Assembly: GCF_020386615.1 (NCBI RefSeq)
Contig: NZ_CP077769.1
Coordinates: 7,489,501-7,553,500 of the forward strand
Direction: 5' to 3'
DNA from: Chitinophaga pendula
GTDB taxonomy: Bacteria; Bacteroidota; Bacteroidia; Chitinophagales; Chitinophagaceae
DNA length: 64,000 nucleotides
Below the pieces are notes generated by a model. That model saw only the letters and a program-made list of their open reading frames with translations, did no database searches and was not told the origin of the DNA. How positions within the stretch are numbered: the stretch's first letter is position 1; each line of letters starts with the position of its first letter. Position numbers and translations under genes: made by a program. Shown in pieces: positions 35,451 through 61,640 of the stretch.

Positions 35451-35454
35451 GACC

Positions 35455-45423: not shown

Positions 45424-45442
45424 TCATATCCTGTATAATAGC

Positions 45443-45480: not shown

Positions 45481-45483
45481 TGA

Positions 45484-45658: not shown

Positions 45659-45700
45659 AACAGGCCGTCCGCGATGTCAAACGACAGCGGACGGCCTGTT
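45659..45700 (-). terminator. terminator of the epimerase-like gene
   Basis: 14-bp perfect stem (45659-45672 with 45687-45700) with a 14-nt loop; on the minus strand it is followed by a T-run (A bases at 45655-45660 in plus). Confidence 0.88.
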
Positions 45701-45718
45701 GGTATGTTTGGTAGGAGT

Positions 45719-46642
45719 TTACTTCGGATACAATTGTTCCATAGCGGCGGTGATCGTCGGGTGGGAGAAGACGAATCCCAGGTCTTGTATCTTGTTGCTG
45801 GACACCCGTACGCTCTTCAATATCTCTACACTCATTTCTCCCAATGCCAGTTTGAGGCCCGCAGCGGGTACATGGATGGTGATGAAGCTGCTGCCTTTGG
45901 CGGCTTTGGCCATTGCCATGATCAGCTCCCGGTGTTTTACCGGGTTGGGGGCGACGGCATTGTAGGCGCCTTGCAGCTGGTTGTTGACGATGGCATTGAA
46001 ATACAGCCGTACCAGGTCGTGCAGGTGTATCCAGCTGACCCACTGCTCGCCGCTGCCCATAATGGTGGCAAAGCCGAAACGAAGGGGTTTGTAGAACTCT
46101 TTCAGGGCTCCTCCCTTGGTACTGAGTGCGATGCCTGTACGGAACAGGACGATGGGGATACCCAGGCTTTCTACTTTCAGCACACTGTTCTCCCAGGCTA
46201 CGCAGGTAGTACCCAGGTAGTCGCTGGCCGGTGGATCGTTTTCCCGGAAGGCCGGTTGATCTTCTTCGCTTTCGCCGTAATAGCCGGTAGCAGAGGCGCT
46301 GATGAATTTTTTAACTTTATGTGGATGATCCTTCAATGACTGGTATAGCAACTCGCTGCTGCGGGTGCGGCTCTCCAGTATTTCCTTTTTACGGGCGGCG
46401 GTCCAGCGTTTGCCGGCTACATTGGCGCCTGCCAGGTGTACTATATAGTCGGCCTGTTGTAAGGCGTTGATATCGATAGCCTGCTTGTTGACATCCCAGT
46501 GGGCATAGGTTACCTGTTCGTTGTCCCTGCTGCGGGATGGGTTACGGCTCAGTATGATCACTTTATAACCTCTTTCCAACAGGAGCCTGGTCAGTTCTGT
46601 ACCTATCAGCCCGGTTCCGCCGGTTATGAGCACTGTCTCCAT
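45719..46642 (-). CDS. TIGR01777-type NAD-dependent epimerase/oxidoreductase
   Basis: 307 residues from ATG at 46642; the upstream in-frame extension to 46768 is unlike the family. The Rossmann loop TGGTGLIG is near residue 8, followed by the AGANVAGKRW and SASATGYYG segments that define the TIGR01777 group (DUF1731 at the C-terminus). Members are cytoplasmic; the E. coli homologue is YfcH. Substrate unknown. Confidence 0.9.
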   Translation of the reverse strand: METVLITGGTGLIGTELTRLLLERGYKVIILSRNPSRSRDNEQVTYAHWDVNKQAIDINALQQADYIVHLAGANVAGKRWTAARKKEILESRTRSSELLYQSLKDHPHKVKKFISASATGYYGESEEDQPAFRENDPPASDYLGTTCVAWENSVLKVESLGIPIVLFRTGIALSTKGGALKEFYKPLRFGFATIMGSGEQWVSWIHLHDLVRLYFNAIVNNQLQGAYNAVAPNPVKHRELIMAMAKAAKGSSFITIHVPAAGLKLALGEMSVEILKSVRVSSNKIQDLGFVFSHPTITAAMEQLYPK

Positions 46643-46877
46643 TAAGATATGATCTAGTTCAGATGAGTGTAAAAAATAATTTCTTAAAAGTACACAATAA
46701 AATACTGTCTTTGGAATTAAACAGTAAGGAGAGGAGATTGTTGATACCAAACCTTTTGCGATACGCATTTTTTCGTGTAGGTTTGGTTAAATTAGCTGCC
46801 GTCCGGTGGTCAGGTAGCTGAATAACCGATACACTGTTACATTTGATTATATCCGAGATATTATAAACATCATACCA

Positions 46878-48401
46878 ATGCACGTCCTATATCGTTTTTG
46901 TCTGATTGTCTGCCTGCTTTTCGGGAGTAGTTCATTGATGGCTCAAAAGATTGTGTACTCAGAGCCGGAACGGGACGATTACAAGAGCACTGAATTTGAG
47001 ATCATTGGCAGGGTATCCGGTAATATCCTGGTATATAAAAGCAACCGGGGTGATTATGCTATTTCCGTGTACGATAATGCCATGCAGCTGAAAGAACGGG
47101 TGAAGGTGGATTTCCCGCCTAAAAAGATGATCAGCGTAGACTTTATCGCCTACCCGAACAAGGTATTTATGATATACCAGTTCCAGCATAAAGATGCGGT
47201 ATTCAGCTTCTGCGCCCGTATGAACGGTGACGGACACTTCGAAGGAGAACCGGTGATGATCGACTCTACCCGCATCGGCAATTATACCAAGGAAAACAAA
47301 GTATACTCTATGGAGTATTCCGAGGATAAGAGCAAGATCATGATCTACAAGATCAACCAGGATAGGGAAGATAACAACGTATTCTATACTTACCTCTACG
47401 ACAGTACTTTTACGTTCATGAACAACAGCCGGCTGTCATTACCCATGGAGAAACGTACCTTCCTGAGCAATTTTACGCTCAGTAATACCGGCGACCTGCT
47501 GTTTACCAAACTGGAGCGTACTAGCAACCGCGACTATATCGTCAATGGTAGCCTGATCATAAAAAGGGTGGTGACCGATACTTTTGATGTCACCCCGCTC
47601 AAACTGGAGAGCCGCCTGCTGGACGAACTGAAACTTAAACTGGACAACAGTACCGATCGTGCCCTGATCACCGCCTTCTACTATAAGCAGAAACGGGGGA
47701 ACGTAGAAGGTCTGTATCTCTCGAAATATGACCTGCGCAACAAGAGCGTGCTCTATGAAAAGACGGCGGTATTCAGCAACGAGGTAAAAGCCAATGCAAA
47801 AGGGGAATCTTCTACGGCGGCGGCCTTCAACGACTATTTCGTCAGGAAGATCATCAATACCAAGGATGGTGGCTTTATCCTCACGGCAGAAGCCTTCTAT
47901 ACGACTTCCCGTTACCAGCCCTGGAACCGCTGGAACTATATGTATGGTGGTGGTCCTTATGGCGGTTATTATTCCCCGTATTCTTATTCTCCTTACTCCC
48001 CCTGGTATTACAACCCCTGGGGCTGGAATAACAGCCAGGGCAACAGGTATCATTACGATAATATTGCTATCCTGTCCTTCGATGGGCAGGGCGACCTGCA
48101 ATGGAATAATTTCATTCCCAAGAGCCAGTACGACGACGGGGCCGACCTTTACCTGTCTTACATGACGGTGAATGTAGGCAGCGAACTGCGTTTCCTGTAT
48201 AACGAGCTGGATCGCCGGAACTATATGATCGTGGACAATGCCATTGCGCCGGACGGTAAGATCAGCCGCCTGCCTACTTTACGTAACCTGGATAAAGGGT
48301 TCACCTGGATGCCGCGGTATGGTAAACAGATCAGTGGCAGATCGGTATTGATACCTTGTATCTACCGTAATTATATCTGCTTCGGAAAGATCGACTTCTA
48401 G
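46878..48401 (+). CDS. secreted protein, unknown, with Tyr/Gly/Pro-rich insert
   Basis: 507 residues with a signal peptide (about 1-22, ending LMAQ). The body has many short beta strands (for example YAISVYD, NILVYKS and LLFTKLE), suggesting a beta-propeller or similar repeated sheet. At about residues 355-395 there is a striking Tyr/Gly/Pro/Ser/Trp-rich insert (YGGGPYGGYYSP and YSPWYYNPWGW). No catalytic motif seen. The following gene begins 38 nt later, so they may be co-transcribed. Confidence 0.68.
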   Translation: MHVLYRFCLIVCLLFGSSSLMAQKIVYSEPERDDYKSTEFEIIGRVSGNILVYKSNRGDYAISVYDNAMQLKERVKVDFPPKKMISVDFIAYPNKVFMIYQFQHKDAVFSFCARMNGDGHFEGEPVMIDSTRIGNYTKENKVYSMEYSEDKSKIMIYKINQDREDNNVFYTYLYDSTFTFMNNSRLSLPMEKRTFLSNFTLSNTGDLLFTKLERTSNRDYIVNGSLIIKRVVTDTFDVTPLKLESRLLDELKLKLDNSTDRALITAFYYKQKRGNVEGLYLSKYDLRNKSVLYEKTAVFSNEVKANAKGESSTAAAFNDYFVRKIINTKDGGFILTAEAFYTTSRYQPWNRWNYMYGGGPYGGYYSPYSYSPYSPWYYNPWGWNNSQGNRYHYDNIAILSFDGQGDLQWNNFIPKSQYDDGADLYLSYMTVNVGSELRFLYNELDRRNYMIVDNAIAPDGKISRLPTLRNLDKGFTWMPRYGKQISGRSVLIPCIYRNYICFGKIDF

Positions 48402-48439
48402 GAGGTGGACTATTTACAAAAAAATTACACCTTTGCACT

Positions 48440-49417
48440 GTGATACGATTTTTTCGCTCCGGCAATCCATTAACGGTATTGCTGCTGTTAATATATACTT
48501 TACTGGTTAAGTCTTTTTACCTGTTACACCCATCTCCTCCTGTAGATGAGGTGTCGCAGGGGCTGCTGTATGAGCTGCTGATAAAATGGCTGAAGTCTTT
48601 TACCGGCAACAGCCCTGTGCTGTATACGGCGCTTGCGGTGTTACTGCTGCTGTTACAGTCTTTGTTACTCACCCGTATTGTCAACAATCACCGGTTATTC
48701 TCCAAGCCGACCTATTTGCCGGCGATGAGTTACCTGCTATTCACTTCCCTGTGGCATGGCTGGAACGTGTTTTCCCCGGCGTTGCTGGTCAACCTGATCA
48801 TGCTGTGGGTGATCAACAGCGTGACAGAGCTGTACACCCGTACTTCCGCCAGGGACGTGGTATTTAATATTGGTTTTGCTATGGGGGTATGCGGTTTGTT
48901 GTATTTTCCGGCCACTATCTTCTGTCTGCTCTTATTACTTAGTCTGCTCATCATGCGGTCCTTCCGGCTGGCGGAGTGGATCATTGCCTTGTTGGGCCTG
49001 ATCTGCCCCATATACCTGCTCAGTACTTACCTGTTCCTTACGGATCAATGGACCCTGATCACCCATATTCCCAAAGTGGGATTGGAGCTGCCGATCATCA
49101 GGGATTATAAAGCCTGGGGGGCGATCGTTGCCAGCGTACTGTTCTTTATAATTGGCTGGTTACTGCTGCAACGCAGCCTGAAGAAGATGCTGATCCAGGG
49201 GCGTAAGACCTGGGCGGTATTGATCGTGTATGTGTTTGTGGGAATGCTGATCCCTTTCTTTACCTTTCATTTCTCACCAGATTACTGGTTATTGGCTATA
49301 CTGCCGCTTTCGCTTTTTGCCGGCAATGTGTTCTGGAACATTACCAATGAAACGATGGCCAATGTCATCCATTTTATATTGCTGGCCTATGTTATTGTGA
49401 TGCAATACTTTAGCTAG
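48440..49417 (+). CDS. DUF6427-type membrane protein
   Basis: 325 residues from GTG at 48440, with about 9 transmembrane helices. The N-terminus IRFFRSGNPLTVLLLLIYTLLV and the conserved SLWHGWNVFSPALLVNLI and YFPATIFCLLLLLSLLIMRSF parts match an uncharacterised family of Bacteroidota inner-membrane proteins. A -7-like element (CACCTTTG, 48428-48435) ends only 4 nt before the GTG, so a leaderless transcript is possible. Confidence 0.75.
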   Translation: MIRFFRSGNPLTVLLLLIYTLLVKSFYLLHPSPPVDEVSQGLLYELLIKWLKSFTGNSPVLYTALAVLLLLLQSLLLTRIVNNHRLFSKPTYLPAMSYLLFTSLWHGWNVFSPALLVNLIMLWVINSVTELYTRTSARDVVFNIGFAMGVCGLLYFPATIFCLLLLLSLLIMRSFRLAEWIIALLGLICPIYLLSTYLFLTDQWTLITHIPKVGLELPIIRDYKAWGAIVASVLFFIIGWLLLQRSLKKMLIQGRKTWAVLIVYVFVGMLIPFFTFHFSPDYWLLAILPLSLFAGNVFWNITNETMANVIHFILLAYVIVMQYFS

Positions 49418-49558
49418 TATTTTCCCATTAGTCTGCCTGTTAGTTGGTACCGGGGTGATCCAGGTGGGATCATACGGAGATTGGTATTTGTATTTTGTTG
49501 ACAACCAACATTTTGTTAAAACGGGATGAACGGCTATGGAAATGTGCAGGCGGCTAAC

Positions 49559-49566
49559 TAATTTTG
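49559..49566 (+). promoter_or_regulatory. -7 element upstream of purQ
   Basis: TAATTTTG, about 97 nt before the purQ start; the matching upstream TTTG is not clear. Confidence 0.45.
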
Positions 49567-49663
49567 CAGTTTTTCCGGTAGTTTCGTATCCGCCAGACAC
49601 GTGCGGAAAATTCCTTCGGAAAGTATTGATTAGCAGATTATTATTATTCAAAAATATATACGA

Positions 49664-50356
49664 ATGAAATTTGGCGTTGTCACCTTCCCCGGTTCTAACT
49701 GTGATCAGGATATGATAGATTCTTTACGTCATGACCTGGGTCAGGAAGTGATTGAACTCTGGCATAAAGATAAAGACCTGAGCATGTTCTCTACAGAGGA
49801 TTGCATTTTGCTGCCCGGGGGCTTTTCTTATGGGGATTACCTGCGTTGCGGTGCTATTGCACGTTTTAGCCCGATGATGCAGAGTGTGATCGAATTCGCG
49901 AATAAAGGTGGCCGTGTTATCGGTATCTGTAATGGTTTCCAGATCCTCTGCGAAGCGGGCCTGCTACCGGGAGCGCTGTTAAGAAATGAGAACCAGCAGT
50001 TTGTATGTAAGAATATCTACCTGAAGAGCGAAAACACCAGCACCTCCATTACCAAGGATGTAACCGGCCGTCCGTTGATGATCCCGGTAGCACATGGTGA
50101 GGGTCGCTACCATGCAGATGAGGCTACCCTGGATGAGCTGTTTGTCAACAACCAGGTGTTATTCCGCTACTGCGATGAATTTGGTAACTATGTAGATAGT
50201 GCTAATCCGAATGGCGCTATCCGTAATATAGCCGGTATCTGCAATAAGAACAGAAATGTATTTGGCATGATGCCGCATCCTGAGCGCGCTACCAGCCTGG
50301 CACTTGGCAATCGCGACGGGCAGCTGATCTTCCAAAGCCTGATCAGCAATAATTAA
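49664..50356 (+). CDS. purQ: phosphoribosylformylglycinamidine synthase subunit I
   Basis: 230 residues. The glutaminase subunit supplying ammonia for FGAM synthesis in purine biosynthesis. The catalytic Cys lies in GICNGFQIL, the His in GMMPHPERA, and the N-terminal VVTFPGSNCDQDM is typical of PurQ. No purS or purL gene is near. Confidence 0.95.
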   Translation: MKFGVVTFPGSNCDQDMIDSLRHDLGQEVIELWHKDKDLSMFSTEDCILLPGGFSYGDYLRCGAIARFSPMMQSVIEFANKGGRVIGICNGFQILCEAGLLPGALLRNENQQFVCKNIYLKSENTSTSITKDVTGRPLMIPVAHGEGRYHADEATLDELFVNNQVLFRYCDEFGNYVDSANPNGAIRNIAGICNKNRNVFGMMPHPERATSLALGNRDGQLIFQSLISNN

Positions 50357-50423
50357 TATAATAAATGGTGCCGGAAGTGCATTTAGTATTTTACCAACCA
50401 ACCATTTAATAAAAAATCAACAC

Positions 50424-50879
50424 ATGAAACAACTGTTAACTGCACTACTCTTCTTTGCGTTGCCGGTACTAGCCAGCGCGCAGATTGAGAATCCAGTGAA
50501 ATGGAGTTTTACTTCCAAAAAGATCAATGCCAACACCTACGAACTGCACATGACAGCCACTATTGATGGGGGCTGGCACCTGTATGCCCAGGAAGCAGGG
50601 GAGGGGCCGGTACCTACTACCTTTAAGTTTGCCAAGAACCCGCTGGTGGCAGTAAGCGGTAAACCTCAGGAGCAGGGCAAACTGCAGAAGTCTTTCGACA
50701 AGAACTTTGACTCTGAGCTCAAATACTTTGAGAACCAGGTGAGCTTCATTCAGAAAGTAACCGTTAAAGGAAAGGCAGCGACCAAAGTAAAAGGGGCGGT
50801 GGAGTATATGGTGTGCGATGACCATCAGTGTCTGCCGCCGAAAGAGGTGGAGTTTGCGATAGCAGTAGGAGGAAAATAA
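50424..50879 (+). CDS. DsbD N-terminal domain-like periplasmic protein
   Basis: 151 residues with a signal peptide (about 1-18, ending SASAQ). The remainder is the N-terminal periplasmic domain of DsbD (disulfide-corrector type) standing alone: NPVKWSFTSKKI, TYELHMTATIDGGWHLY, and the VCDDHQCLPP motif with two Cys. Its likely partner is the full-length DsbD-like protein encoded next, whose own N-terminal domain is similar. It may pass electrons to periplasmic proteins. Confidence 0.83.
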   Translation: MKQLLTALLFFALPVLASAQIENPVKWSFTSKKINANTYELHMTATIDGGWHLYAQEAGEGPVPTTFKFAKNPLVAVSGKPQEQGKLQKSFDKNFDSELKYFENQVSFIQKVTVKGKAATKVKGAVEYMVCDDHQCLPPKEVEFAIAVGGK

Positions 50880-50927
50880 GTGCTATACCATCCCGTACAT
50901 TTACATTAGTACATATACATCATTGAG

Positions 50928-50950
50928 ACGAGTTCCTCCACGGAACTCGT
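50928..50950 (+). terminator. possible terminator between the two DsbD-type genes
   Basis: 9-bp perfect stem (50928-50936 with 50942-50950), 5-nt loop, then TTCTTA. Confidence 0.6.
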
Positions 50951-50994
50951 TTCTTATATTCACCTGTCTATAGTCTCTAAAGTCCATTACATTT

Positions 50995-52998
50995 ATGAAG
51001 CATTTACTGGCCTTTATGATGTTCCTGCTGGCGGCGACCGGTTTACGGGCGCAGGAAGTGGTGAAGTGGGAGAACAGCATCACTCAGCAAGGAGAAGGCA
51101 TCTATATATTACATTTCAAGGGCACCGTTCAACCGGGATGGTCCCTGTACTCCACTACCATGGGAGATGATGAACCGAATACCCGCGTTGTCCTGGACAG
51201 CACTGGCGGTAACCAACTCCAGATCACCGGTATCAAGGAAGAAGGGCAGTTGCAGACCCGCAAGGAGCCGCTGTTTGACAATATCAACGTGAAGTTCTTC
51301 ACGACAAGTGTCGAGTTGCAGGTGACGGTGAAGGCTGCCAAATCGGTGACTAGCATTGCGGGCACCATCACCTCTATGGTTCAGAAAGGAGAGGAAGTGA
51401 ATCCGGAAGAGCACAAATTTGACCTGAAGCCTGTTGTGGCCAATGAGGCAGCTACCCAACCGCCTACCGGCGCAGTAGCTACCACTGAACCGGTCGCAGA
51501 AGACGATGCTTCCAATAAATCATTGATCTGGATCTTCCTGGCCTGTTTCGGCGGTGGCTTCCTGGCATTGATCACCCCTTGTGTATTCTCCATGATCCCG
51601 ATTACGGTAGGTTTTTTTACCAAGCGGAGTAAGACAAGGGCGGAGGGTATACGGAATGCTTTTACCTATTCCTTGTCTATCATTATCATCTACACTTTAC
51701 TTGGTTTTGCCATCACCAAGATATTCGGCGCCAGCGCGCTGAATAACCTGGCGAGTAATGGTATTGCCAATATGATCTTTTTTATCATTTTCATATTGTT
51801 CGGGTTTTCTTTCCTGGGTGCTTTTGAGATCAGTCTGCCCAGCTCCTGGGCCAGTAAGAGTGATTCTCAGGCGGGGATGAGCAGCCTGACCGGTATTTTC
51901 TTTATGGCGCTGACATTGGCCATCGTATCTTTCTCCTGCACTGGTCCTATCATTGGTAATTTGCTGGTATTAGCGGCTAAGGGAGGTAACTCTGGTCCGC
52001 TGGTGGGCATGTTTGGCTTTTCGCTGGCATTGGCTATTCCGTTCTCGCTGTTTGCCTTGTTCCCCAGCTGGCTGAACAAGATCGGTAAATCCGGTGGCTG
52101 GCTGAATGCGGTGAAGGTAACCCTGGGTTTCCTGGAGCTGGCACTGGCATTGAAGTTCCTTTCCAATGTGGATATGGCGTATCACTGGAACCTGCTGAAC
52201 CGCGATGTGTTCCTGGCCCTGTGGATCGTGCTGTTCGCATTGACAGGCTTCTACCTGCTGGGTAAGCTTAAATTCAGCCACGACAGCGATGTGCCGTATA
52301 TTTCGGTGACCCGTTTGTGTTTTGCTATTGTGGCGCTCACTTTTACGGTATATATGGTACCCGGGCTATGGGGCGCTCCCTTGAAGGGGATTAGCGGATT
52401 TCTGCCGCATGAGGGCTCCCAGGACTTTAACCTGCACCGCTCCCTGACCAACCTGGAAGCGGCCCTGGATGGAGGAGTCAGTACAGGTGATAAAGGCCAG
52501 GTAGTACGCGCTAAAAAGTACACTGATATCCTGCACTCTGAAATACCAGGTGTAGAGAATGTGTTCTTCGACTATAAAGAGGCGGTAGAAGCGGCAAAGG
52601 CGGCCAACAAGCCGTTGATGATCGACTTTACCGGTCACTCCTGTACGAACTGCCGTAAGTTTGAAAAGTCCGTATTATCTGATCCTGGTGTGATGAAGAT
52701 CTTACGTAATGACTTCGTGGTAGCATCCCTGTATACGGATGATAAGACGGCACTGCCGGATAATGAGCAGTATGTGTCTACGTTCGATGGTTCCAAGATC
52801 AAAAATATCGGTCAGCAGAACCTGGATTTCCAGGCATCTACCTTCAACCGTAACTCGCAGCCGTATTACATCCCGGTGGACACTAACGGTAAGCCGCTGG
52901 TGAATAAAGGATACGGATATGACCCGAGGGAGGATGTGAATGCTTTCATCCAGTACCTGGAGCAAGCCAAGGCAGCATTTGCCAAGAGAGGAAAATAA
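50995..52998 (+). CDS. thiol:disulfide interchange protein DsbD-like
   Basis: 667 residues. Signal peptide (1-20), a periplasmic N-terminal domain (about 21-150), eight membrane helices (about 175-460) with the two conserved Cys in LITPCVFSM and FSCTGP, and a C-terminal thioredoxin-like domain (about 510-660) with CTNC in TGHSCTNCRKFEK. It carries electrons from cytoplasmic thioredoxin to the periplasm for disulfide reduction and cytochrome c assembly. The gene ends in a strong terminator just before the phased repeat. Confidence 0.93.
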   Translation: MKHLLAFMMFLLAATGLRAQEVVKWENSITQQGEGIYILHFKGTVQPGWSLYSTTMGDDEPNTRVVLDSTGGNQLQITGIKEEGQLQTRKEPLFDNINVKFFTTSVELQVTVKAAKSVTSIAGTITSMVQKGEEVNPEEHKFDLKPVVANEAATQPPTGAVATTEPVAEDDASNKSLIWIFLACFGGGFLALITPCVFSMIPITVGFFTKRSKTRAEGIRNAFTYSLSIIIIYTLLGFAITKIFGASALNNLASNGIANMIFFIIFILFGFSFLGAFEISLPSSWASKSDSQAGMSSLTGIFFMALTLAIVSFSCTGPIIGNLLVLAAKGGNSGPLVGMFGFSLALAIPFSLFALFPSWLNKIGKSGGWLNAVKVTLGFLELALALKFLSNVDMAYHWNLLNRDVFLALWIVLFALTGFYLLGKLKFSHDSDVPYISVTRLCFAIVALTFTVYMVPGLWGAPLKGISGFLPHEGSQDFNLHRSLTNLEAALDGGVSTGDKGQVVRAKKYTDILHSEIPGVENVFFDYKEAVEAAKAANKPLMIDFTGHSCTNCRKFEKSVLSDPGVMKILRNDFVVASLYTDDKTALPDNEQYVSTFDGSKIKNIGQQNLDFQASTFNRNSQPYYIPVDTNGKPLVNKGYGYDPREDVNAFIQYLEQAKAAFAKRGK

Positions 52999-53020
52999 TA
53001 AGTTATTCCTGCATACAAGC

Positions 53021-53057
53021 GACGGCCGGTATACGTGTGTATACCGGCCGTCTTATT
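53021..53057 (+). terminator. terminator of the DsbD-like gene
   Basis: 14-bp perfect stem (53021-53034 with 53039-53052), 4-nt loop, then TTATTTTC. Confidence 0.92.
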
Positions 53058-53105
53058 TTCAGCGCAACATAATCCAATGGTAATTAGTTAATTACAATGG
53101 GGTTG

Positions 53106-53288
53106 TATAAGCATCCTATAGTTATTGTATAAGCGTTGTATAAGCAACCTATAGTCATGGTATAGGCATTCTATAGCGGAGGTATACCCGGGGTATAGTC
53201 ATTGTATAGGTTTTGTATAAGATTGGATAGGGGTAGCTTATAGGATGACTATACGAATGATACAGGAATGTTATAGGAATGATATAGG
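53106..53288 (+). repeat. 11-bp phased TATA repeat, 17 units
   Basis: TATA cores start at 53106, 53117, 53128, 53139, 53150, 53161, 53172, 53183, 53194, 53205 and 53216 with exact 11-bp spacing. A disturbed unit near 53227 adds 1 bp, then cores resume at 53239, 53250, 53261, 53272 and 53283. The base after TATA is usually A or G, then G; the next five bases vary. The last units read TATAGGAATGA as in the two smaller arrays. The array fills the gap between the terminators of the convergent dsbD and hisS genes; no gene lies here. Confidence 0.9.
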
Positions 53289-53315
53289 AAAGGCTGACCA
53301 TAGCGGTCAGCCTTT
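53289..53315 (-). terminator. terminator of hisS
   Basis: 11-bp perfect stem (53289-53299 with 53305-53315) with a 5-nt loop, 30 nt after the hisS stop. It touches the last unit of the phased repeat. Confidence 0.85.
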
Positions 53316-53344
53316 CGGTATTTTAGGCCCTTTTGAGGGGAGGA

Positions 53345-54697
53345 TTATGCAAAGGTAAAGCTGTCCAGTGCGTTCATGGCGATCTTTTGTTGTTCGCCGG
53401 TCTGCATGTTTTTGATACTGACCATATTGTCTTGCAGTTCGCTTTCGGCGATGATGCCTACGTAGGGGATACCCCGTTTGTTGGCATATTTCATCTGTTT
53501 ATCCAGCTTGGTGACTTCGTGGAACAGTTCTGCGGCGATGCCTTGCTGGCGGAGCTGCATGACCAGTTGGAAAGCGGCTTTGCCTGCTGCTTCGCTCAGG
53601 TGGAAGAACAGTATTTTGGTGGATTGCTGGGTGGCTTCGGGGAATAGCTGGAGATCTTCCAGTACGTCGTAGATACGGTCTACGCCGAAGGAGATGCCTA
53701 CGCCGGAGATGCCGGGTAGGCCGAACAAGCCGGTGAGGTCGTCATAGCGACCGCCACCGCCGATGCTGCCCATTTTTACGGTAGCCGGGGCTTTCACTTC
53801 TACGATCATGCCGGTGTAGTAGTTGAGGCCACGGGCGAGGGTGACATCGATGATGGGGGTGGTGTGGAAGGTGGCCATACCGGAGTTGAGGACATATGAC
53901 AGTTCGGCAATGCCTTTGAGGCCGGTTTCGGAGGCGGCCAGCAGGCTTTGCAGCTGTTGCAGTTTTTCGTCGTTGCTGCCGTTGATATCGAGGAAGCGGG
54001 TGATGGACTGGATATGTTCGTCGGAGAGGCCGCGGGTGCTCAGTTCTTTGTGTACGCCATCGAGGCCGATCTTATCGAGTTTGTCGATGGCTACGGTGAT
54101 GTCGGTGAGCAGGTCGGGGCGGCCGATGACTTCTGCCAGTCCGCTCAGTATCTTGCGATTGTTGACTCTCAGTTCGTAGCCCTGCATGCCTAGTTTGGTA
54201 AATACGCTATCGTATATAAGCAGGAGTTCTACTTCATTGAGTAGGGAGTTGCTGCCTACGACGTCGGCATCGCACTGGTAGAATTCGCGGTAGCGGCCCC
54301 GTTGTGGTCTGTCGGCGCGCCATACGGGTTGCATTTGGTAGCGTTTGAACGGCAGGGCCAGTTCGTGCTGGTTCATGACTACGTAGCGGGCGAATGGGAT
54401 GGTGAGGTCGTAGCGTAATGCTTTTTCACAGAGGAGGTGGGCCAGTTCTTTGCTGTTCTGGGCCTTCTGTGCCTCTTCCAGTATCTCGCCGTTATTGAGG
54501 ATCTTAAATATCAGTTGATCGCCTTCCTCACCGTATTTGCCGGTGAGGGTGGAGAGATTTTCCATGGTGGGGGTTTCCAGTGGCTGGAATCCGAAGCATT
54601 CGAATGTTTCCCGGATGGCCTGGAAGATATAATTGCGTTTTCTTACTACGGCGGGGCCGAAGTCGCGGGTACCTTTGGGAATGGAAGGTTTGATCAT
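53345..54697 (-). CDS. hisS: histidyl-tRNA synthetase
   Basis: 450 residues. It charges tRNA-His. Class II motifs are visible: motif 1 (KPSIPKGTRDFGP start and the YIFQAIRETFECFGFQPLETPTMEN helix), motif 2 (FKRYQMQPVWRADRPQRGRYREFYQCDAD) and motif 3 (GISFGVDRIYDVL), along with the LARGLNYYTG histidine loop. The C-terminal anticodon-binding domain follows from about 355. The phosphatase gene lies upstream on the same strand, 53 nt away. Confidence 0.97.
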   Translation of the reverse strand: MIKPSIPKGTRDFGPAVVRKRNYIFQAIRETFECFGFQPLETPTMENLSTLTGKYGEEGDQLIFKILNNGEILEEAQKAQNSKELAHLLCEKALRYDLTIPFARYVVMNQHELALPFKRYQMQPVWRADRPQRGRYREFYQCDADVVGSNSLLNEVELLLIYDSVFTKLGMQGYELRVNNRKILSGLAEVIGRPDLLTDITVAIDKLDKIGLDGVHKELSTRGLSDEHIQSITRFLDINGSNDEKLQQLQSLLAASETGLKGIAELSYVLNSGMATFHTTPIIDVTLARGLNYYTGMIVEVKAPATVKMGSIGGGGRYDDLTGLFGLPGISGVGISFGVDRIYDVLEDLQLFPEATQQSTKILFFHLSEAAGKAAFQLVMQLRQQGIAAELFHEVTKLDKQMKYANKRGIPYVGIIAESELQDNMVSIKNMQTGEQQKIAMNALDSFTFA

Positions 54698-54750
54698 TTA
54701 TTATTGCAGTGATTAGTATGAAATAAGAAGGTTTATGCCGGTTTGCGCTG

Positions 54751-55200
54751 TTATCCTTTGTGTTGCAGCAATTGTTGCAATTGCTGTTCGCAGGAGTGCA
54801 GGATCATGTCGTACACGGGTTCGAAGAGGGCGTCGTCGAACCAGGGATCGGGTACCGGCTGTTGGTTATCGCGCAGCATAGCGACTTTATTGCGGTCGGC
54901 TTCGTTGCGGGCTTTGCGGATGACATCGCGGTAGTTATTGAGGTCCATGGTGAAGATGGCGTCGAAGTGGTCGAAGTCATCGGCTGTGAATTGTCTGCCC
55001 CGCAGGTGGGCAATATCCACCCCATGGCGATGGCCTACTTTGATAGCTCTGTGATCGGGCGGATCGCCTACATGCCAGTCGCCGGTGCCGGCGGAGTCTA
55101 TTTCCCAGTCCAGCCCGTTTTGTTGTGCGAGGTGTCTCATGATGCCTTCTGCCAGTGGTGAGCGGCAAATGTTGCCCAGGCAGACCATTAATATCTTCAT
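54751..55200 (-). CDS. low-molecular-weight protein-tyrosine phosphatase
   Basis: 149 residues. The P-loop CLGNICRS runs from Cys7 to Arg13 and the general acid Asp lies in PDPWFDD near residue 118. It removes phosphate from tyrosine in proteins, and in bacteria it often opposes tyrosine kinases of capsule export; no such kinase is in view. It precedes hisS with a 53-nt gap. Confidence 0.94.
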   Translation of the reverse strand: MKILMVCLGNICRSPLAEGIMRHLAQQNGLDWEIDSAGTGDWHVGDPPDHRAIKVGHRHGVDIAHLRGRQFTADDFDHFDAIFTMDLNNYRDVIRKARNEADRNKVAMLRDNQQPVPDPWFDDALFEPVYDMILHSCEQQLQQLLQHKG

Positions 55201-55699
55201 AATGAGCGGTTTCCGGATCAGCTGTGTGTTCCCTCCGGAAGGGGACTAACGGTCTTAAAAATCACCGCAAACCTACAAGATTTTGAGGGAAAAGTGTAAT
55301 GAGGCGGCTGGACGTGGAGGAGGGAGCGGGTAGATAGTCGGTATAGGGGGAGGGAAAGGTAAGGAGGGTAGGTGCGATAATTGTAAGTAGATAGGCGGTG
55401 AGAAATGTGGAATAAACTGTTATGGAATGTTGGCACAAATGCCATCTTTTATACAAAGAAGAACATATGCTATTAGAAGACTGGAAATCCTTAACACTCC
55501 TTTAACATAGTAAAAGTCATCTGGGGTGTATATATAGTCGGTAACCTACTGAATGTTAGGTTGTTCAAAAATTAAAATTGTCTCCAGATGCCTGTTAACA
55601 GGGAGTTTAAGCCGTTCTGTGGGAAAGATTTTAACATTTTCAGGCAGGGCGGTTTGCTAGATTAGAAATATATTTTTTGTATAATTGTAACTTGCTAAC
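55201..55699. other. long non-coding stretch
   Basis: 499 nt between divergent genes with no convincing gene. It contains a G-rich part (55310-55372) with at least four runs of three or more G, a perfect 12-bp palindrome CCTGTTAACAGG (55591-55602), and near the end a TTTG ... TTTTTTG pair that could be the promoter of the gene at 55700. Two overlapping minus-strand open frames here (55218-55445 and 55262-55456) look random. Confidence 0.4.
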
Positions 55700-55945
55700 A
55701 TGCCAATGCATCAGGACAATTCAAGTAACAGACGTATTCAGGCCGCATACCGGCCATTAGGGGAATTGATAAGAGGGATTATCTTTTTGCTCTTTGGACT
55801 TTTTGCTTTTTTAGCGGAGAAGCTCGGTATTGGTGAGTTTCAGGTTTCTCCACTCGTGATGAACATCTTTGGTGCGGTGCTGATAGTATATGGTTTATTT
55901 CGTGTGTACAGGGGTATTAAACATTTATTTTTTAACAGGGGATAA
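55700..55945 (+). CDS. small membrane protein, two helices
   Basis: 81 residues with a polar N-terminus (1-22) and two hydrophobic helices (about 25-42 and 52-72), ending in a basic segment. No family recognised. It begins a tight three-gene run with the PstS-like and TPR proteins (14-nt and 35-nt gaps), so a common function is likely. Confidence 0.75.
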   Translation: MPMHQDNSSNRRIQAAYRPLGELIRGIIFLLFGLFAFLAEKLGIGEFQVSPLVMNIFGAVLIVYGLFRVYRGIKHLFFNRG

Positions 55946-55959
55946 CACACCGGATAACT

Positions 55960-56874
55960 ATGTTTTGCACACTTAAGAAACAGATAGGGGGAATGATCGC
56001 CCTGGCGGCTACCCTTCTGATATCATGCAACAGCGATCAGCCTAAGGGGATGGAGGATACGGCCACTAATGGGACCATAAAAATTTCTGTCGACGAGACC
56101 TATAAGCCGCTCATAGAATCAGAGATCAAAGTATTCCAATCGTTGTATCCCAAAACGCATATTGTTGCATCTTACAAGCCTGAATCTGAATGTTTCAAAG
56201 ACCTTTTGAACGACAGTGCCAGGCTGGTGATCGTAACGCGCGACTTCAACGAGCAGGAGAAGAATTACTTTAAAGAGATCAAGATTGCTCCACAGAGTTT
56301 ATTGTTAGCGTGGGATGCGGTAGCCTTAATTACGAACAGGGCTAATGCGGATTCTATCCTTACGATGGACCAGGTGCGGAAGATCATGGACGGTACGGCA
56401 GAAGGGCGTAAGTGGCAGGTGGTGTTTGATAATCAGCATTCGAGTACCGTACGTTTTATCCGTGATTCGATCAATGCAGGTAAGCCTTTACCGAAGGATG
56501 CGATGGCGGCTAAGACCAACGAAGAGGTAGTAGACTATGTATCAAAGAATAAAGATGCGATAGGTGTTATTGGGGTAAGTTGGATATCAGATCCGAATGA
56601 TTCGACGACGATGGCATTCACCAACCGGGTGAATGTAGTGAAGGTGAGAGCGGATAATGGGTCTGATTTTGTGAAGCCTTATCAGGCATATATCGCTTTG
56701 GGATCTTATCCTTTGAAGAGAGGATTCTACTTTGGCCTGAAGGAGCCATACCATGGGTTAGGCACGGGATTTGCCACTTTCTTAGGCAGTTATGAAGGGC
56801 AATTAGTGATCAGTAAATTCAGGCTCTTCCCAGCCAGACTGAATGTGGTGTTCAGGGAAGCAAACATCAAATAA
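55960..56874 (+). CDS. PstS-like substrate-binding lipoprotein
   Basis: 304 residues with a lipobox LLISC (Cys23). The fold is that of periplasmic phosphate-binding proteins: KISVDETYKPLIESEIKVFQSLYP, then ARLVIVTRDFNEQE, and a domain that ends with GRKWQVVFDNQHSSTVRFIRDSI. The usual transport genes pstC, pstA and pstB are absent, so it probably does not feed a phosphate importer. In Bacteroidota such proteins are often found near TonB/ExbBD and TPR genes. Confidence 0.85.
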   Translation: MFCTLKKQIGGMIALAATLLISCNSDQPKGMEDTATNGTIKISVDETYKPLIESEIKVFQSLYPKTHIVASYKPESECFKDLLNDSARLVIVTRDFNEQEKNYFKEIKIAPQSLLLAWDAVALITNRANADSILTMDQVRKIMDGTAEGRKWQVVFDNQHSSTVRFIRDSINAGKPLPKDAMAAKTNEEVVDYVSKNKDAIGVIGVSWISDPNDSTTMAFTNRVNVVKVRADNGSDFVKPYQAYIALGSYPLKRGFYFGLKEPYHGLGTGFATFLGSYEGQLVISKFRLFPARLNVVFREANIK

Positions 56875-56909
56875 TCATTAACACAACTAAAACTAAAACC
56901 AGATTGCTC

Positions 56910-58640
56910 ATGAACAGACGGAAAAGTTTAATTGTTGCAATGCTGTGCGTCGCGAATGGCGTCATGGCCCAATCTGTTGAGGATGGATTGAAGGACCTTT
57001 ATTACGGTAAATATCAGTCAGCCAAGCAGAATTTAGAAAAAGCGATAGCTGCTAAGCCTACTGATGACAGAGGATATTACTATCTGGGGTTAGCTGAGCT
57101 GGGATTGGAAAATCAAAACGGTGCTGCTGCCGCTTTCCAGAAAGGATTGCAAGCAGTTCCAAACTCTCCGCTGCTGCAGGCAGGTATGGGACGTATCGAT
57201 CTACTGAGTGGTAATGCTGCTGCAGCCAAGCAAAAATTTGAAGCATCTAACGGTGCTACTGGTGGCCGTAACGGTGACGTAGCTCGTGCTATCGCAGACG
57301 CTAATACTGAGGTAAAAGGTGGCGACCGCGGATATGCAGCCAGCATCATGGAGCGACTGCTTAACAATGAAGGCCGCAAGAAAAAAGAACAATACACAGC
57401 TACTGCTGCTGACTATATCGAACTGGGCGACGCTTACCGCTCCCTGGGTGGTGAAAATGGTGGTAAAGCCATTTCCACTTATGAGAAAGCATTGGAAGTA
57501 GATGCTAACAATGCAGAAGCGGTAATGAAACAAGGTCTGGTGAACTACAATGCTAAACTGCTGGAACAGGCAGTAGCTGACTGGAGCAAAGCGACCAATA
57601 TGGACCCTAAATATGGTCCTGCTTACCTGGAGCTGTACCAGTTCTACATCACACCTAAAAAGAACCAGTTCTCTCTGGAGAATGCAGCGCAATACCTGCA
57701 GAAATATATCGAGGTAGCTGACCCGAACGACAAACTGAAGAATGAGTACTACCTGGCTTCTATCTCTTTCCTGAAGAAAGATTACGATGGTGCTATCAAC
57801 AAAGCTAAAACCATCATCCAGCAGGCAAATGAAGTTTATAAAGATAAGCTGACCCTGCTGATCGGCGACTCTTACCTGCAGAAAGGTGATTCCCTGCAAG
57901 CTAAGCAGGTAATGGACGAGTATGTAAAGAGCGTAGGCGACAGCAAACTGGGTCCTTTGGATTACAAACTGCTGAGTGAGATCTACGGTCGGGTAAAAGT
58001 ACAGGATAGTGTTCAGGCGGCGGTGAATGATTCACTGGCTTCTTTGTACCTGGAGAAATATGCTACGGCGGATACATCCAAAGATGCAGACAGATACCGT
58101 ACTGTAGCGGAGTCTTTCAAAGGACTGCGTGACTACAAACGTTCTGCTGAATGGTATGGCCGTCTGACCCGTGATTTCAGCGATGAGCAGAATGCCGGTA
58201 AGATCCAGGATTTCTTCTGGAAAGGTACTATGGAGTACTATGCGCAGCTGCAGGATTCTGCCAGTGCCACTTTTGATGCCTTTATCCAGAAATATCCCCA
58301 GCAGGAAGCGTTGGGTCTGTATTGGAAAGGCCGTGCGCTGATGGCGAAAGATGCTGATGCGAAACAAGGTTTGGCGCAGCCGGTATATCAGAAATTCTTT
58401 GAAGTAGGGGGTGAGTCTAAGATGAAGCCAGCGCAGCTGGTCTATCCTTATCAGTACCTGATGATCTACTACTACAACAAGGATGATAAAGAAAATATGA
58501 AGATCTGGATGGACAAAGTGTTGAGTGCGAATCCGAACGATCCTACTGCGAAGCAGATTCAGGAGAATATGAACAGTTCTAATAAAGCTGCTTCCAAGGC
58601 CCCTGCCGGTAAGACTACCCAGGGTCAGAACAAGAAATAA
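56910..58640 (+). CDS. TPR-repeat secreted protein
   Basis: 576 residues from ATG at 56910 (a TTG two codons earlier is not chosen). Signal peptide about 1-20. Residues 25-560 hold a series of tetratricopeptide-like helical hairpins, with a clear one at about 29-95 (YYGKYQSAKQNLEKAIAAKP and YYYLGLAELGLENQNGAAAAF), and a longer set of irregular repeats later. The C-terminus is a Lys/Ala/Pro/Gln tail. It is the last gene of the three-gene operon and ends in a strong terminator. Confidence 0.86.
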   Translation: MNRRKSLIVAMLCVANGVMAQSVEDGLKDLYYGKYQSAKQNLEKAIAAKPTDDRGYYYLGLAELGLENQNGAAAAFQKGLQAVPNSPLLQAGMGRIDLLSGNAAAAKQKFEASNGATGGRNGDVARAIADANTEVKGGDRGYAASIMERLLNNEGRKKKEQYTATAADYIELGDAYRSLGGENGGKAISTYEKALEVDANNAEAVMKQGLVNYNAKLLEQAVADWSKATNMDPKYGPAYLELYQFYITPKKNQFSLENAAQYLQKYIEVADPNDKLKNEYYLASISFLKKDYDGAINKAKTIIQQANEVYKDKLTLLIGDSYLQKGDSLQAKQVMDEYVKSVGDSKLGPLDYKLLSEIYGRVKVQDSVQAAVNDSLASLYLEKYATADTSKDADRYRTVAESFKGLRDYKRSAEWYGRLTRDFSDEQNAGKIQDFFWKGTMEYYAQLQDSASATFDAFIQKYPQQEALGLYWKGRALMAKDADAKQGLAQPVYQKFFEVGGESKMKPAQLVYPYQYLMIYYYNKDDKENMKIWMDKVLSANPNDPTAKQIQENMNSSNKAASKAPAGKTTQGQNKK

Positions 58641-58664
58641 ATACACGAATTTGATAAACTGAGG

Positions 58665-58693
58665 AAACCCCCTGCCTGGCAGGGGGTTTTTTT
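58665..58693 (+). terminator. rho-independent terminator
   Basis: 10-bp stem (58665-58674 with 58680-58689) with a 5-nt loop, followed by a T-run to 58693. Confidence 0.92.
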
Positions 58694-58737
58694 ATTGGTG
58701 ATTGGTGAAAAAAGATAATATTTTAAACCTTCGCAGA

Positions 58738-58769
58738 TTTGTATTTTGGCTTTAGTTGCAGTATTTTTG
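58738..58769 (+). promoter_or_regulatory. promoter of the nuo operon
   Basis: TTTG at 58738-58741 and TATTTTTG at 58762-58769, spacing 20 nt, 32 nt before the nuoA start codon. A clean match to the phylum consensus. Confidence 0.8.
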
Positions 58770-58801
58770 CGAATTCGGAGAACGTTTTTATCGGGAAGCT
58801 T

Positions 58802-59197
58802 ATGTATACAGTCACTGAATTATTGTCAGCAACTAATACTCCATTCAGTTATTTTCCTATTGTATTGCAGTTAATCGCTGCACTGGGGTTTGTAGCCATT
58901 ACGATGATCGGTACCCATTTTTTGGGGCCGAAACGTAAGACCAACGACAAGTTGATCAACTTTGAGAGCGGTATTGAACAGAAAGGGAACGCTCGCCAAC
59001 CTGTTGCTATCAAATATTTCCTGACTGCCATTTTGTTCGTTTTATTTGATGTGGAGGTAATCTTCTTCTATCCGTATGCGGTCAATTTCCGGGAGTTGGG
59101 ATGGGATGGTTTCATGGCGATGGTCATGTTCGTTGCGTTCTTTTTGGGTGGTTTCTTCTATATCTATAAGAAGGGAGCGCTTAAATGGGAAGATTAA
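58802..59197 (+). CDS. nuoA: NADH-quinone oxidoreductase subunit A
   Basis: 131 residues from ATG at 58802. Three membrane helices; NuoA lies at the junction between the membrane arm and the peripheral arm of complex I. The conserved FESGIEQKGNARQPVAIKYF, FLTAILFVLFDVEVIFFYPY and AFFLGGFFYIYKKGALKWE segments are typical. It opens an operon with nuoB to nuoG. Confidence 0.95.
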   Translation: MYTVTELLSATNTPFSYFPIVLQLIAALGFVAITMIGTHFLGPKRKTNDKLINFESGIEQKGNARQPVAIKYFLTAILFVLFDVEVIFFYPYAVNFRELGWDGFMAMVMFVAFFLGGFFYIYKKGALKWED

Positions 59198-59283
59198 GGT
59201 GTAGTAGGGTAGGGTTGACCCGGTTTTTGCTGCGTTACAGGCAGCTGCAATTAAAATTCTAAATCTATTAAATCTGAAATCCA

Positions 59284-59847
59284 ATGGCTCGTCCGGTTCA
59301 GTATAATACCAAGGTGAAAACGGTGGAGATACCGGAAGGATATTCCGGAGAGGGTTTTTTTGCCACTTCATTCGACAGGGTGATAGGTCTGGCGCGTAAG
59401 AACTCTATCTGGCCTTTGCCTTTTGCGACCTCCTGTTGTGGGATCGAGTTTATGGCTACGATGGCTTCCAATTATGACATGGCGAGGTTTGGTGCCGAAC
59501 GTATGGCATTTACGCCGCGTCAGTGCGACCTGTTGATGGTAATGGGGACTATTGCCAAGAAGATGGGGCCTGTATTGCGGCAGGTGTACCTGCAGATGGC
59601 CGAGCCTCGTTGGGTGATGGCAGTAGGTGCCTGTGCATCCAGTGGAGGTATTTTCGATACTTACTCTGTATTGCAGGGTATTGACCAGGTGATCCCGGTG
59701 GATGTGTATGTACCGGGTTGTCCTCCTCGTCCGGAAGCGATCATAGACGGCTTTATGAACATCCAGCAACTGGTACATAATGAGAGTCTGCGTCGCCGTC
59801 ATACGGACCGTTACAAGGAGCTGATGACCTCTTACGGCATTGAGTAG
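59284..59847 (+). CDS. nuoB: NADH-quinone oxidoreductase subunit B
   Basis: 187 residues. It holds the N2 iron-sulfur cluster closest to the quinone site. The CC pair in [10 protein letters not shown], the Cys in GACASSGG and the Cys in [10 protein letters not shown] are all present. Located 86 nt after nuoA. Confidence 0.97.
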
Positions 59848-59892
59848 TTCCTTCACCTGCAAGCATTCAAGAACAAAAATCCTTCATCGTAC

Positions 59893-60396
59893 ATGTCTTT
59901 GACAAACGAGCATATTAAACAACGATTGGCAGATAAGTTTGGAGACCAGGTCTCTGGCTTTGAAGAATCGTTTGGGGTGCTGTCCTTTATCGCGCCAAAA
60001 GAATTGAACCTGAAAGTGATGCAGTTCCTTTTTGATGACGAGGAGCTGCGTTTTCGCTTTCTGACGGACCTGACAGCGGTACATTACCCGGATCGCAGTG
60101 GCGAAGAGCTGGCGGTGGTATATCATCTGTACAACTTCCAGGACCGGGTGCGTTTGCGTTTTAAAGTATATACCGCTACGGCAGCGCCGCAGGTATTTAC
60201 GGCCACCGCCCTGTATGAGTCTGCCAACTGGATGGAGCGGGAGACATACGACTTCTTTGGTGTGGACTTCGTAGGCCACCCTAACCTGAAGCGTATCCTC
60301 AACGTGGATGAAATGACCTATTTCCCGATGCGTAAGGAATTTCCGCTGGAAGATCCGTTGCGTGTGGACAAGGACGACGAGATGTTCGGCCGGTAA
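59893..60396 (+). CDS. nuoC: NADH-quinone oxidoreductase subunit C
   Basis: 167 residues, the 30-kDa subunit of the peripheral arm. The ERETYDFFGVDFVGHPNLKRIL motif is diagnostic; FPLEDPLR ends the family core. Not fused to nuoD, unlike in some enterobacteria. 45 nt after nuoB. Confidence 0.96.
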   Translation: MSLTNEHIKQRLADKFGDQVSGFEESFGVLSFIAPKELNLKVMQFLFDDEELRFRFLTDLTAVHYPDRSGEELAVVYHLYNFQDRVRLRFKVYTATAAPQVFTATALYESANWMERETYDFFGVDFVGHPNLKRILNVDEMTYFPMRKEFPLEDPLRVDKDDEMFGR

Positions 60397-60422
60397 ATTT
60401 AACTATCATTATTCAACGACTT

Positions 60423-61640
60423 ATGTCAGAGCAGCAAAATATACAACTGCCGGAAGGCTCTATAGAAAGGCAAACGACGACGCTGAACCTGGGTCCTACG
60501 CACCCGGCTACCCACGGGGTGTTTCAAAATATCCTGGAGATGGATGGGGAACGTATCGTCAGTACTGTATCTACTGTAGGGTATATACACCGTGCCTTTG
60601 AAAAGATCGCTGAGCGCAGACCGTATTACCAGATCACGCCGCTCACGGACCGTCTGAACTACTGTTCTGCACCTATCAATAACCTGGGATGGCACCTGAC
60701 TGTAGAGAAACTGCTGGGCATACAAGTGCCTAAGCGGGTAGATTACCTGCGTATCATCATTATGGAACTGGCCCGTATCACCGACCACCTGATCTGTAAC
60801 GGGGTAATGGGAGTGGATACCGGCGCATTCACCGGCTTCCTTTACCTGATGAAGTACCGGGAACTAGTATATGAAATATATGAGGAGATCTGCGGTTCCC
60901 GCTTGACGACCAATATCGGCCGTGTAGGTGGATTTGAGCGCAACTTCACCCCTGCTGCTTTTGAGAAACTGCACCGTTTCCTGGAAGAATATCCCAAAGC
61001 ATTGAAAGAGTTTGAGACCCTGATGACGCGTAACCGCATCTTCATGGAGCGTACCCAGGGAGTAGGTGGCATCAGCGCCGAAAGAGCGATGAGCTATGGT
61101 TTTACCGGGCCTAACCTGCGTGCTGCCGGCGTGGACTACGATGTGCGGGTGGCACATCCGTATTGCTCTTATGAAGAGTTTGAGTTTTCTGTACCGGTAG
61201 GTTCTACCGGCGACTGTTATGACCGTTTCATGGTGCGTAACGCGGAAATGTGGGAGAGCCTGAGCATCATCCGCCAGGTGCTGGAGAAACTGAAGAACGA
61301 ACCTGCAGATGTTTACCATGCGGATGTACCTGCGTACTACCTGCCTGATAAATCTGATGTATATACGAAGATGGAGGCATTGATCTACCACTTCAAAATT
61401 GTAATGGGAGAATCCGATATCCTGCCTGGTGAACTGTATCATGCAGTGGAAGGGGCGAACGGAGAGCTGGGGTTCTACCTGATCAGCGATGGTGGCCGCA
61501 GCCCTTACCGACTGCACTTCCGCCGTCCTTGTTTCATTTACTACCAGGCTTATCCTGAACTGGTGAAAGGTGCGATGCTCAGTGATGCAATCATCTGCCT
61601 GAGTAGTCTGAACCTGATCGCAGGGGAGCTGGATGCCTAA
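60423..61640 (+). CDS. nuoD: NADH-quinone oxidoreductase subunit D
   Basis: 405 residues, the 49-kDa subunit, which with NuoB forms the quinone-binding cavity. LNLGPTHPATHGVF near the N-terminus, GYIHRAFEKIAE, DYLRIIIMELARITDHLI and the C-terminal EGANGELGFYLISDGGRSPYRLHFRRPCF are typical. 26 nt after nuoC. Confidence 0.97.
   Translation: MSEQQNIQLPEGSIERQTTTLNLGPTHPATHGVFQNILEMDGERIVSTVSTVGYIHRAFEKIAERRPYYQITPLTDRLNYCSAPINNLGWHLTVEKLLGIQVPKRVDYLRIIIMELARITDHLICNGVMGVDTGAFTGFLYLMKYRELVYEIYEEICGSRLTTNIGRVGGFERNFTPAAFEKLHRFLEEYPKALKEFETLMTRNRIFMERTQGVGGISAERAMSYGFTGPNLRAAGVDYDVRVAHPYCSYEEFEFSVPVGSTGDCYDRFMVRNAEMWESLSIIRQVLEKLKNEPADVYHADVPAYYLPDKSDVYTKMEALIYHFKIVMGESDILPGELYHAVEGANGELGFYLISDGGRSPYRLHFRRPCFIYYQAYPELVKGAMLSDAIICLSSLNLIAGELDA

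Follow-up and report, generated by a model that had tools for sequence, protein, structure and literature searches.

A dispersed repeat of 11-bp-phased TATA cores is oriented along local GC skew in Chitinophaga pendula

Why would a bacterial chromosome hold, between two convergent genes, a row of TATA cores at one exact spacing while the bases between them differ? This question is raised by a block of about 190 bp (53106-53293) of 11-bp-phased TATA motifs in the window, i.e., the whole stretch of 64,000 nucleotides analyzed here (C1:7489501-7553500 of the Chitinophaga pendula genome, a single-contig chromosome of 7.66 Mb). Inspection of the array confirmed the eleven consecutive TATA cores, exactly 11 bp apart, that had been reported in an earlier note on this DNA. 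That note counted 17 units; we count 16 cores, one of which is TACA, and 17 are reached only if a GATA at 53226 in the centre is included. The left-arm cores span 53106-53219, and those of the right arm are TATA at 53239, 53250, 53272 and 53283 and TACA at 53261. What had been taken for a 1-bp disturbance is a conserved 15-bp centre, which sets the TATA-to-TATA distance at 23 instead of 22 bp and recurs in all but one of the 30 top-scoring BLAST loci (29 of 30). Spacers that change in nearly every unit, as the note stated, are indeed seen within the window copy, but across copies the spacers appear (by eye) to come from a limited vocabulary and those of the right arm are well conserved. As for the two convergent terminators between which the array had been placed, the neighbouring genes do converge, but both flanking stems were called on the plus strand only; a third match of the consensus scan lies on the minus strand, within the dsbD-like gene.

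Table 1. Features of the window, in window coordinates
Feature	Position	Strand	Remark
dsbD-like thiol-disulfide interchange protein gene	50995..52998	+	Pfam DsbD_TM and thioredoxin-like
Terminator-like stem behind the upstream dsbD-like gene	53021..53052	+	Consensus scan
Left arm of the array	53106..53221	+	11 TATA cores, exact 11-bp step, core S-TATA-R
Conserved 15-bp centre, ATTGGATAGGGGTAG	53222..53236	+	TATA-to-TATA distance 23
Inverted right arm of the array	53237..53293	+	TATA/TACA cores, conserved spacers (CGAATG, GGAATG type)
Terminator-like stem between array and hisS, overlapping the array end	53288..53316	.	Called on + only
hisS, histidyl-tRNA synthetase gene, convergent to the dsbD-like gene	53345..54697	-	Pfam tRNA-synt_His
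Partial copy (right arm)	10410..10455	-	Minus strand is G-rich here
Degenerate partial copy (right arm)	31575..31625	-	Lies in the 2-kb bin with the lowest skew in the window
Negative GC-skew region	1..42000	-	Contains both minus-oriented partial copies
Zero-to-positive GC-skew region around the array	43000..64000	+	2-kb bins 0.0 to +0.22

The array belongs to a family of oriented repeats dispersed through intergenic DNA. A BLAST search of the genome with positions 53085-53310 gave at least 40 clear loci on both strands (best 40 of 122 candidates scored). The 30 loci that were retrieved share a common layout of tandem TATA-N7 units (AGCRTTG type), the 15-bp centre and an inverted arm with CGAATG- or GGAATG-type spacers; the single locus without the centre at its fixed distance is a copy made of the right arm only. 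Such half copies occur elsewhere too, and in the window it is the region 53194-53294, with the right arm, that matched a sequence-only model of the element. With this model the best 150 of 2944 candidates were scored, which returned 151 matches and makes all copy numbers lower bounds. Reduction by hand, which dropped second and opposite-strand matches of the same copy as well as part of the weakest matches, left 51 strong places (>=67 bits) and 49 weak ones, i.e., at least 51 full and about 49 partial or degenerate copies. A gapless alignment over 105 columns was obtained for 36 copies, from which the sequence-only model was derived. L042 was replaced by the longer L096, and L030, a segmental duplicate of L029, was omitted from this alignment and from the core count, arm-swap hairpin test and age test described below, and retained in the 43-copy skew count. 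A short subfamily (L099-L102 and L104-L106) looks young, with nearest-copy identities of 0.91-0.98; its members carry an extra inverted pair, GTTGCATATA ... TATATGCAAC, in their left part. By eye, GTAG is present in the centre of only some copies. An origin from a phage or plasmid was rejected, as the element found no match among 50,697 phage and 72,556 plasmid records, a collection from which its own or near-identical records may be absent.

In a centre-anchored alignment of 28 copies, the seven innermost cores of the left arm read TATA in 780 of 784 cells (about 99.5-99.7% conserved), as against an average of 66% for the inner left spacer columns; in the right arm the cores average 95% and the spacers 86%. 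The contention that the cores are constrained while the spacers drift is therefore borne out. Tandem slippage was rejected, as spacers were not copied along with cores and the copies are dispersed and colinear; indeed, slippage or neutral decay is hard to invoke because copies keep both cores and register even where their spacers have diverged by a third. The cores are either maintained by selection site by site or required by the process that makes the copies. The period itself is equally specific: four TATA at 11-bp spacing gave 213 matches in the C. pendula genome (overlapping windows, not loci) versus none for the reversed pattern, and no match was found in this genome at spacings of 10 or 12 bp. 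Among 60 Chitinophaga genomes, the 11-bp spacing occurred in 27, the 10-bp spacing in 5 (mostly microsatellites) and the 12-bp spacing in 2, so that phased arrays do not look like the chance occurrences that the earlier note had allowed for. A reversed control (ATAT at 11 bp) also matched in 17 of those 27 genomes, in some of them more often; beyond C. pendula, the conspicuous feature is therefore the period and not TATA itself.

Three roles had been proposed for the array: intrinsic bending, docking of a nucleoid protein and insulation between convergent genes. Insulation is unsupported because copies occur in all gene contexts (11 divergent, 9 convergent and 10 tandem in 30 loci, by a simple ORF rule). 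Docking of a DNA-binding protein is the reading that we prefer. At this particular locus the array was probably gained. A dsbD-like match lies convergent beside hisS in 20 of 29 relatives drawn, and in 18 of these 20 the gap is free of TATA pairs at 11 bp. The match reaches at least 68% identity in 11 of the 20, 10 of which have no TATA pair; in the other nine the identity is only 36-44%, and the match may be a paralogue. The earlier note had held that orthologous gaps without any trace of the period would speak against a functional array. Such gaps prevail here, and the array is therefore marked as probably gained at this site, not as noise. The two exceptions are L074, with one TATA pair, and L072 (G206), whose gap has nine pairs belonging to a different array. 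The L072 gap between the convergent hisS and dsbD-like genes also holds a long imperfect hairpin.

Could the element act at the level of RNA, as an attenuator, terminator or small RNA whose arms pair after transcription? The native inner hairpin does beat arm-swapped chimeras at arm lengths of 17, 28 and 39 nt (20, 0 and 8 of 2000 permutations), and z-scores against shuffled sequence were -4.2 and -5.4, partly owing to the flanking terminator stems in the folded stretches. However, no excess was seen at arms of 61 and 83 nt (z of -0.6 and 0.1), and the chimera test does not control for relatedness. RNAalifold, run on 36 copies, returned no consensus pair (0), arm-to-arm matching was better than with swapped arms in the innermost units only, and Rfam gave nothing above gathering score in 52900-53500 (chance-level matches only). 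In addition, gene contexts are random and half copies lack one arm. We rejected a structured RNA, a reading that we regard as extremely unlikely.

Copies are oriented along the keto (G+T-rich) strand of their surroundings. Measured in element orientation over 3-6 kb per locus with the element excluded, the GC skew of the flanks was positive in 43 of 43 copies, with a mean of +0.20, against a mean of 0.026 (sd 0.147) in background 3-kb windows. The lowest of the 43, L029, is about zero (+0.003, or -0.002 with a narrower measuring window). Three loci were left out of this count: L109 and L112 are concordant with the skew, and L108, a divergent array of three units, has the opposite sign (-0.056). 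Orientation agreed with skew in five of five further copies checked. We also scanned 1.25 Mb of the chromosome with a profile of the element; this sample comprised 760 kb in 38 evenly spaced 20-kb windows, 430 kb at 5.60-6.03 Mb (selected because copies of both orientations are present there) and the 64 kb of the window. All 22 matches at E<0.1, half of which (11) came from the evenly spaced windows, were concordant, and reversed sequence gave none at this threshold. Weaker matches were concordant in 2/2 cases at E 0.1-1 and 0/3 at E 1-10, as compared with 1/1 and 9/13 in the reversed control.

The skew extends well beyond the immediate flanks. Around full copies, oriented skew fell with distance from 0.194 (<2 kb) through 0.160, 0.169, 0.109 (10-20 kb) and 0.065 to 0.013 (30-50 kb). 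The fade was slower when weak copies were included, with values of 0.096 for 30-50 kb and 0.010 for 50-80 kb; the weak matches of the model may have a preference of their own for a G-rich strand. A field model, in which oriented exponentials are summed over elements to predict the skew of 2-kb bins, performed best at 20 kb among six lengths tried. It reached r=0.759 with all elements, 0.641 with full copies alone and 0.428 with weak copies, and 300 circular shifts of all elements gave r of at most 0.35. Between 40 and 56 kb of the window, the skew climbs from about -0.2 to +0.2. An island at 5693918 has a skew of -0.18 at a single copy and turns positive 20 kb away on both sides. The correspondence has gaps, too. 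Among eight copies profiled, three (5758182, 5838749 and 5923247) are without a skew peak at the copy. Strong skew was found in 47 of 125 10-kb bins, and 12 of the 47 have no listed copy within 25 kb; in three of these 12 a finer scan revealed degenerate copies in the predicted orientation (near 5625709, 5655397 and 1917661), and nine are unexplained. Skew did not correlate with the apparent age of copies (36 copies, Spearman 0.07, p=0.67), and the young short subfamily is as skewed as old copies.

Next to these elements, replication direction explains little of the skew. The sampled chromosome is a mosaic of GC-skew domains, with 2-kb bins of up to about +-0.35, and the direction of 774 sampled genes defines two replichores that switch near 2.0 and 6.1 Mb, with 497 of the 774 genes co-directional. 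The third-position skew of the same genes correlated with the element field at r=0.75 (t=32), as against -0.04 for replichore and -0.12 for gene strand; a joint fit gave an R2 of 0.58. Bins near copies that oppose their replichore were equally skewed (0.189 vs 0.164), and skew was similar upstream and downstream of copies, slightly higher downstream. Between the extremes of the field, four-fold sites changed from A.21 C.53 G.13 T.12 to A.15 C.14 G.48 T.23, the mark of a keto (G+T) strand. The G+C content of these sites was 0.55 where the field is close to zero, 0.61-0.67 at its extremes and 0.49-0.57 elsewhere, for which a recombination-linked GC bias is a possible cause. The most strand-polar words were mostly G-rich. 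A Chi- or KOPS-like motif as the cause of the skew was rejected, since enrichments over Markov expectation were modest or due to the element's own units. Also rejected was a replication-polar motif of the KOPS/AIMS kind: with replichores inferred from the 774 genes, 34 of 51 full copies and 17 of 49 weak copies were concordant, i.e., orientation does not track replichore and skew is unrelated to it.

The mosaic might nonetheless be ordinary replication skew, cut up by inversions after elements had inserted in leading-strand orientation. Leading strands are typically G+T-rich, and the full copies do lean towards the gene-defined replichore. On the other hand, only a minority of weak copies do so, gene strand does not track local skew and two replichores still show in gene direction. 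Moreover, skew transitions are gradual, and the island at 5693918 is only tens of kb across, with a single copy inside it. An inversion mosaic is thus already disfavoured, and we consider it very unlikely.

Arrays of this build are found in relatives with other words. Four TATA at 11 bp were present in 20 of 195 genomes of the family and in 17 of 395 in a phylum sample (C. pendula counted each time), and the spacer words vary by species. The C. pendula type of sequence is strong only in C. pendula itself; any match at E<=0.001 was obtained in 6 of 79 genomes of the genus, C. pendula included. Phased 11-bp arrays without TATA exist in G224 and G201. The latter has a dispersed repeat of the 11-bp unit AGCGACGAACW, with 47+66 matches (<=2 mismatches) versus 4+2 in the control, at about 54 loci (e.g., L382:1890 and L386-L405) after reduction by hand of the matches listed. 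An apparent duplication of 7.7 kb in G201 connects L382:1890 and 9601 (near 21.9 and 29.6 kb) and sits in a strongly skewed island in which nearly all long ORFs are on one strand. TATA-free arrays of G224 (C12:376855, 524939 and 647600; CCCGCAGATAA and CACTAACAGGT types) seem to be inverted about a centre. In G197, short phased arrays (L302-L320) seem by eye to be enclosed by inverted ends, TATTTTACC ... GGTAAAATA, a MITE-like packaging.

The link with skew is a different matter, and its generality beyond C. pendula is not supported. The skew mosaic of C. pendula is unusually strong to begin with (sd of 2-kb bins 0.151 in C. pendula vs 0.087 in G201, 0.082 in G224 and 0.053 in G197, in the samples read). 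For the different 11-bp words of other species, no clear link was seen in G197 (20 loci), G205 (7), G106 (5), G250 (4), G213 (3) or G206 (1). In G201, 14 of 20 loci were concordant (p=0.12); its field model gave r=0.43, a value reached in 0.014 of 500 shifts, and one gene island with nearly all genes on a single strand weighs heavily in it. The array of G224 that is related to those of C. pendula lies 7-17 kb from a negative skew excursion, the strongest in the 400 kb of surrounding sequence examined. The signs agree when the CATTC/GAATG words are used to orient the array and disagree when the BLAST match to the left arm is used, and the model barely matches the array (E 0.25). We did not count G224 as support because the sign depends on the orientation rule and the model match is marginal.

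What, then, does the element do in C. pendula? We lean, at close to but below an even chance, towards a dispersed, strand-oriented element, bound or wrapped by a protein, on which a strand-asymmetric DNA process is centred. The protein would bind or wrap the element on a single face of the helix, the nearest likeness being a strong gyrase site. To either side of the oriented complex, one strand would be exposed as single-stranded DNA, damaged or copied anew more often than the other, for instance by a strand-specific nick widened to a gap or by recombination of one strand, and the outcome would be a roughly symmetric G+T skew of the same sign around the element. An origin or a double-strand break does not fit, because the sign would then flip at the site, whereas the observed skew keeps its sign. 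We are somewhat less confident of a broader proposition, in which about 100 oriented TATA-phased elements, more than the direction of replication, would determine strand composition and would form a new kind of chromosomal landmark. The proposition includes, at the same tentative level, that each element may centre a strand-asymmetric DNA process (a nick, a gap or a hotspot of recombination) with a reach of tens of kb in either direction, and that the wider genus may carry 11-bp-phased repeats that resemble these in build, change fast and use words particular to each species.

The main competitor, which we rate as not much less likely than the preferred reading, reverses cause and effect: a MITE-like mobile element would insert, or be retained, strand-specifically in skew that already exists, and the cores would be kept because the mobilizing enzyme needs TATA. 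Insertion into existing skew fits equally well with the absence of a trend between skew and age and with the strong skew around the young short subfamily. It is also consistent with the empty hisS gap of 18 of 20 relatives, the half copies and the segmental duplicate, the nine strong-skew bins with no copy within 25 kb, and the seemingly inverted ends of the G197 arrays. Nevertheless, insertion leaves the strong skew mosaic, which tracks neither replichore nor gene strand, to be explained by some separate cause, and the skew peaks at several copies, degenerate ones included. No terminal inverted repeats or target duplications were noticed by eye in the 30 C. pendula loci. The Y1 transposase domain PF01797 had 0 matches at E<=0.001 in the C. 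pendula genome, and the control search found it in 5 of 14 genomes; mobilization by a RAYT was rejected on this ground.

Within the preferred reading of a protein-bound element, a special case would be a strong DNA-gyrase site, in which the arms wrap the GyrA C-terminal domains, the centre serves as the gate and the reach of tens of kb reflects a topological domain. PMC6379681 describes a gyrase motif with a 36-bp centre, two 47-bp flanks and a GC periodicity of 10.75 bp, and BIME-2 repeats that act as gyrase sites. Both arms of the array resemble such flanks in that their 11-bp TATA-N7 periodicity agrees with the approximately 10.75 bp given there. A pitch of about 11 bp is read as that of negatively supercoiled DNA in PMC4132750. 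Still, the periodic cores of the array come within 23 bp of each other across the centre, which seems shorter than the non-periodic gyrase centre of about 36 bp, and gyrase action gives no obvious reason for a strand asymmetry of the same sign on both sides. We rate this special case as unlikely.

GC skew in bacteria is taken to reflect the direction of replication, and origins are located with its help. For the 1.25 Mb sampled here, where the members of one repeat family lie and which way they point is enough to predict over half of the variation in skew (r=0.76), and replichore adds almost nothing to the prediction. We know of no counterpart of such a coupling between a repeat and skew, and none was found in the open-licence PMC literature. 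Elements that cause the skew would point to a previously undescribed strand-asymmetric process that starts from fixed sites on the chromosome, and elements that follow the skew would show where one strand is exposed. The choice between the two is directly testable in Chitinophaga, a soil genus with cultured strains.

The element itself was not found described in the open-licence PMC literature, including the available parts of PMC11556136, PMC3035255, PMC6379681, PMC4132750 and PMC12393610. Like BIME-2 and strong gyrase sites such as the Mu SGS (PMC6379681), it is intergenic and interspersed, has phased AT/GC flanks about a centre and could organize topology. Unlike them, it has exact TATA-N7 units, an apparently shorter centre and an orientation along local skew. 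Its period is that of the 11-bp AT periodicity of bacterial genomes, the "structural code" (PMC4132750), which is a statistical signal of A/T tracts and not, as here, a set of discrete sequence-defined units. REP and REPIN sequences with their RAYTs are likewise intergenic, numerous and partly palindromic. They are palindromes of 20-40 bp with a GTAG/CGTC tag, whereas the copies described here are phased and about 100-200 bp long, in a genome in which no Y1 transposase domain was found. Short, dispersed, non-coding copies and relatives with an empty site are shared with MITEs, which differ in that our element has tandem phased units and a coupling to skew, and shows no terminal repeats or target duplications noticeable by eye. 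DNA uptake sequences are species-specific dispersed short words, unlike the arrays of words at about 50-100 loci seen here. KOPS, Chi and AIMS are polar motifs whose orientation follows replication direction. They resemble the array in that orientation is coupled to strand composition; the array differs in tracking a local skew that is independent of replichore, and in consisting of about 100 large sites rather than short oligomers. The repeat is therefore of a known broad kind, interspersed intergenic repeats, and it is the coupling to skew for which we know of no counterpart.
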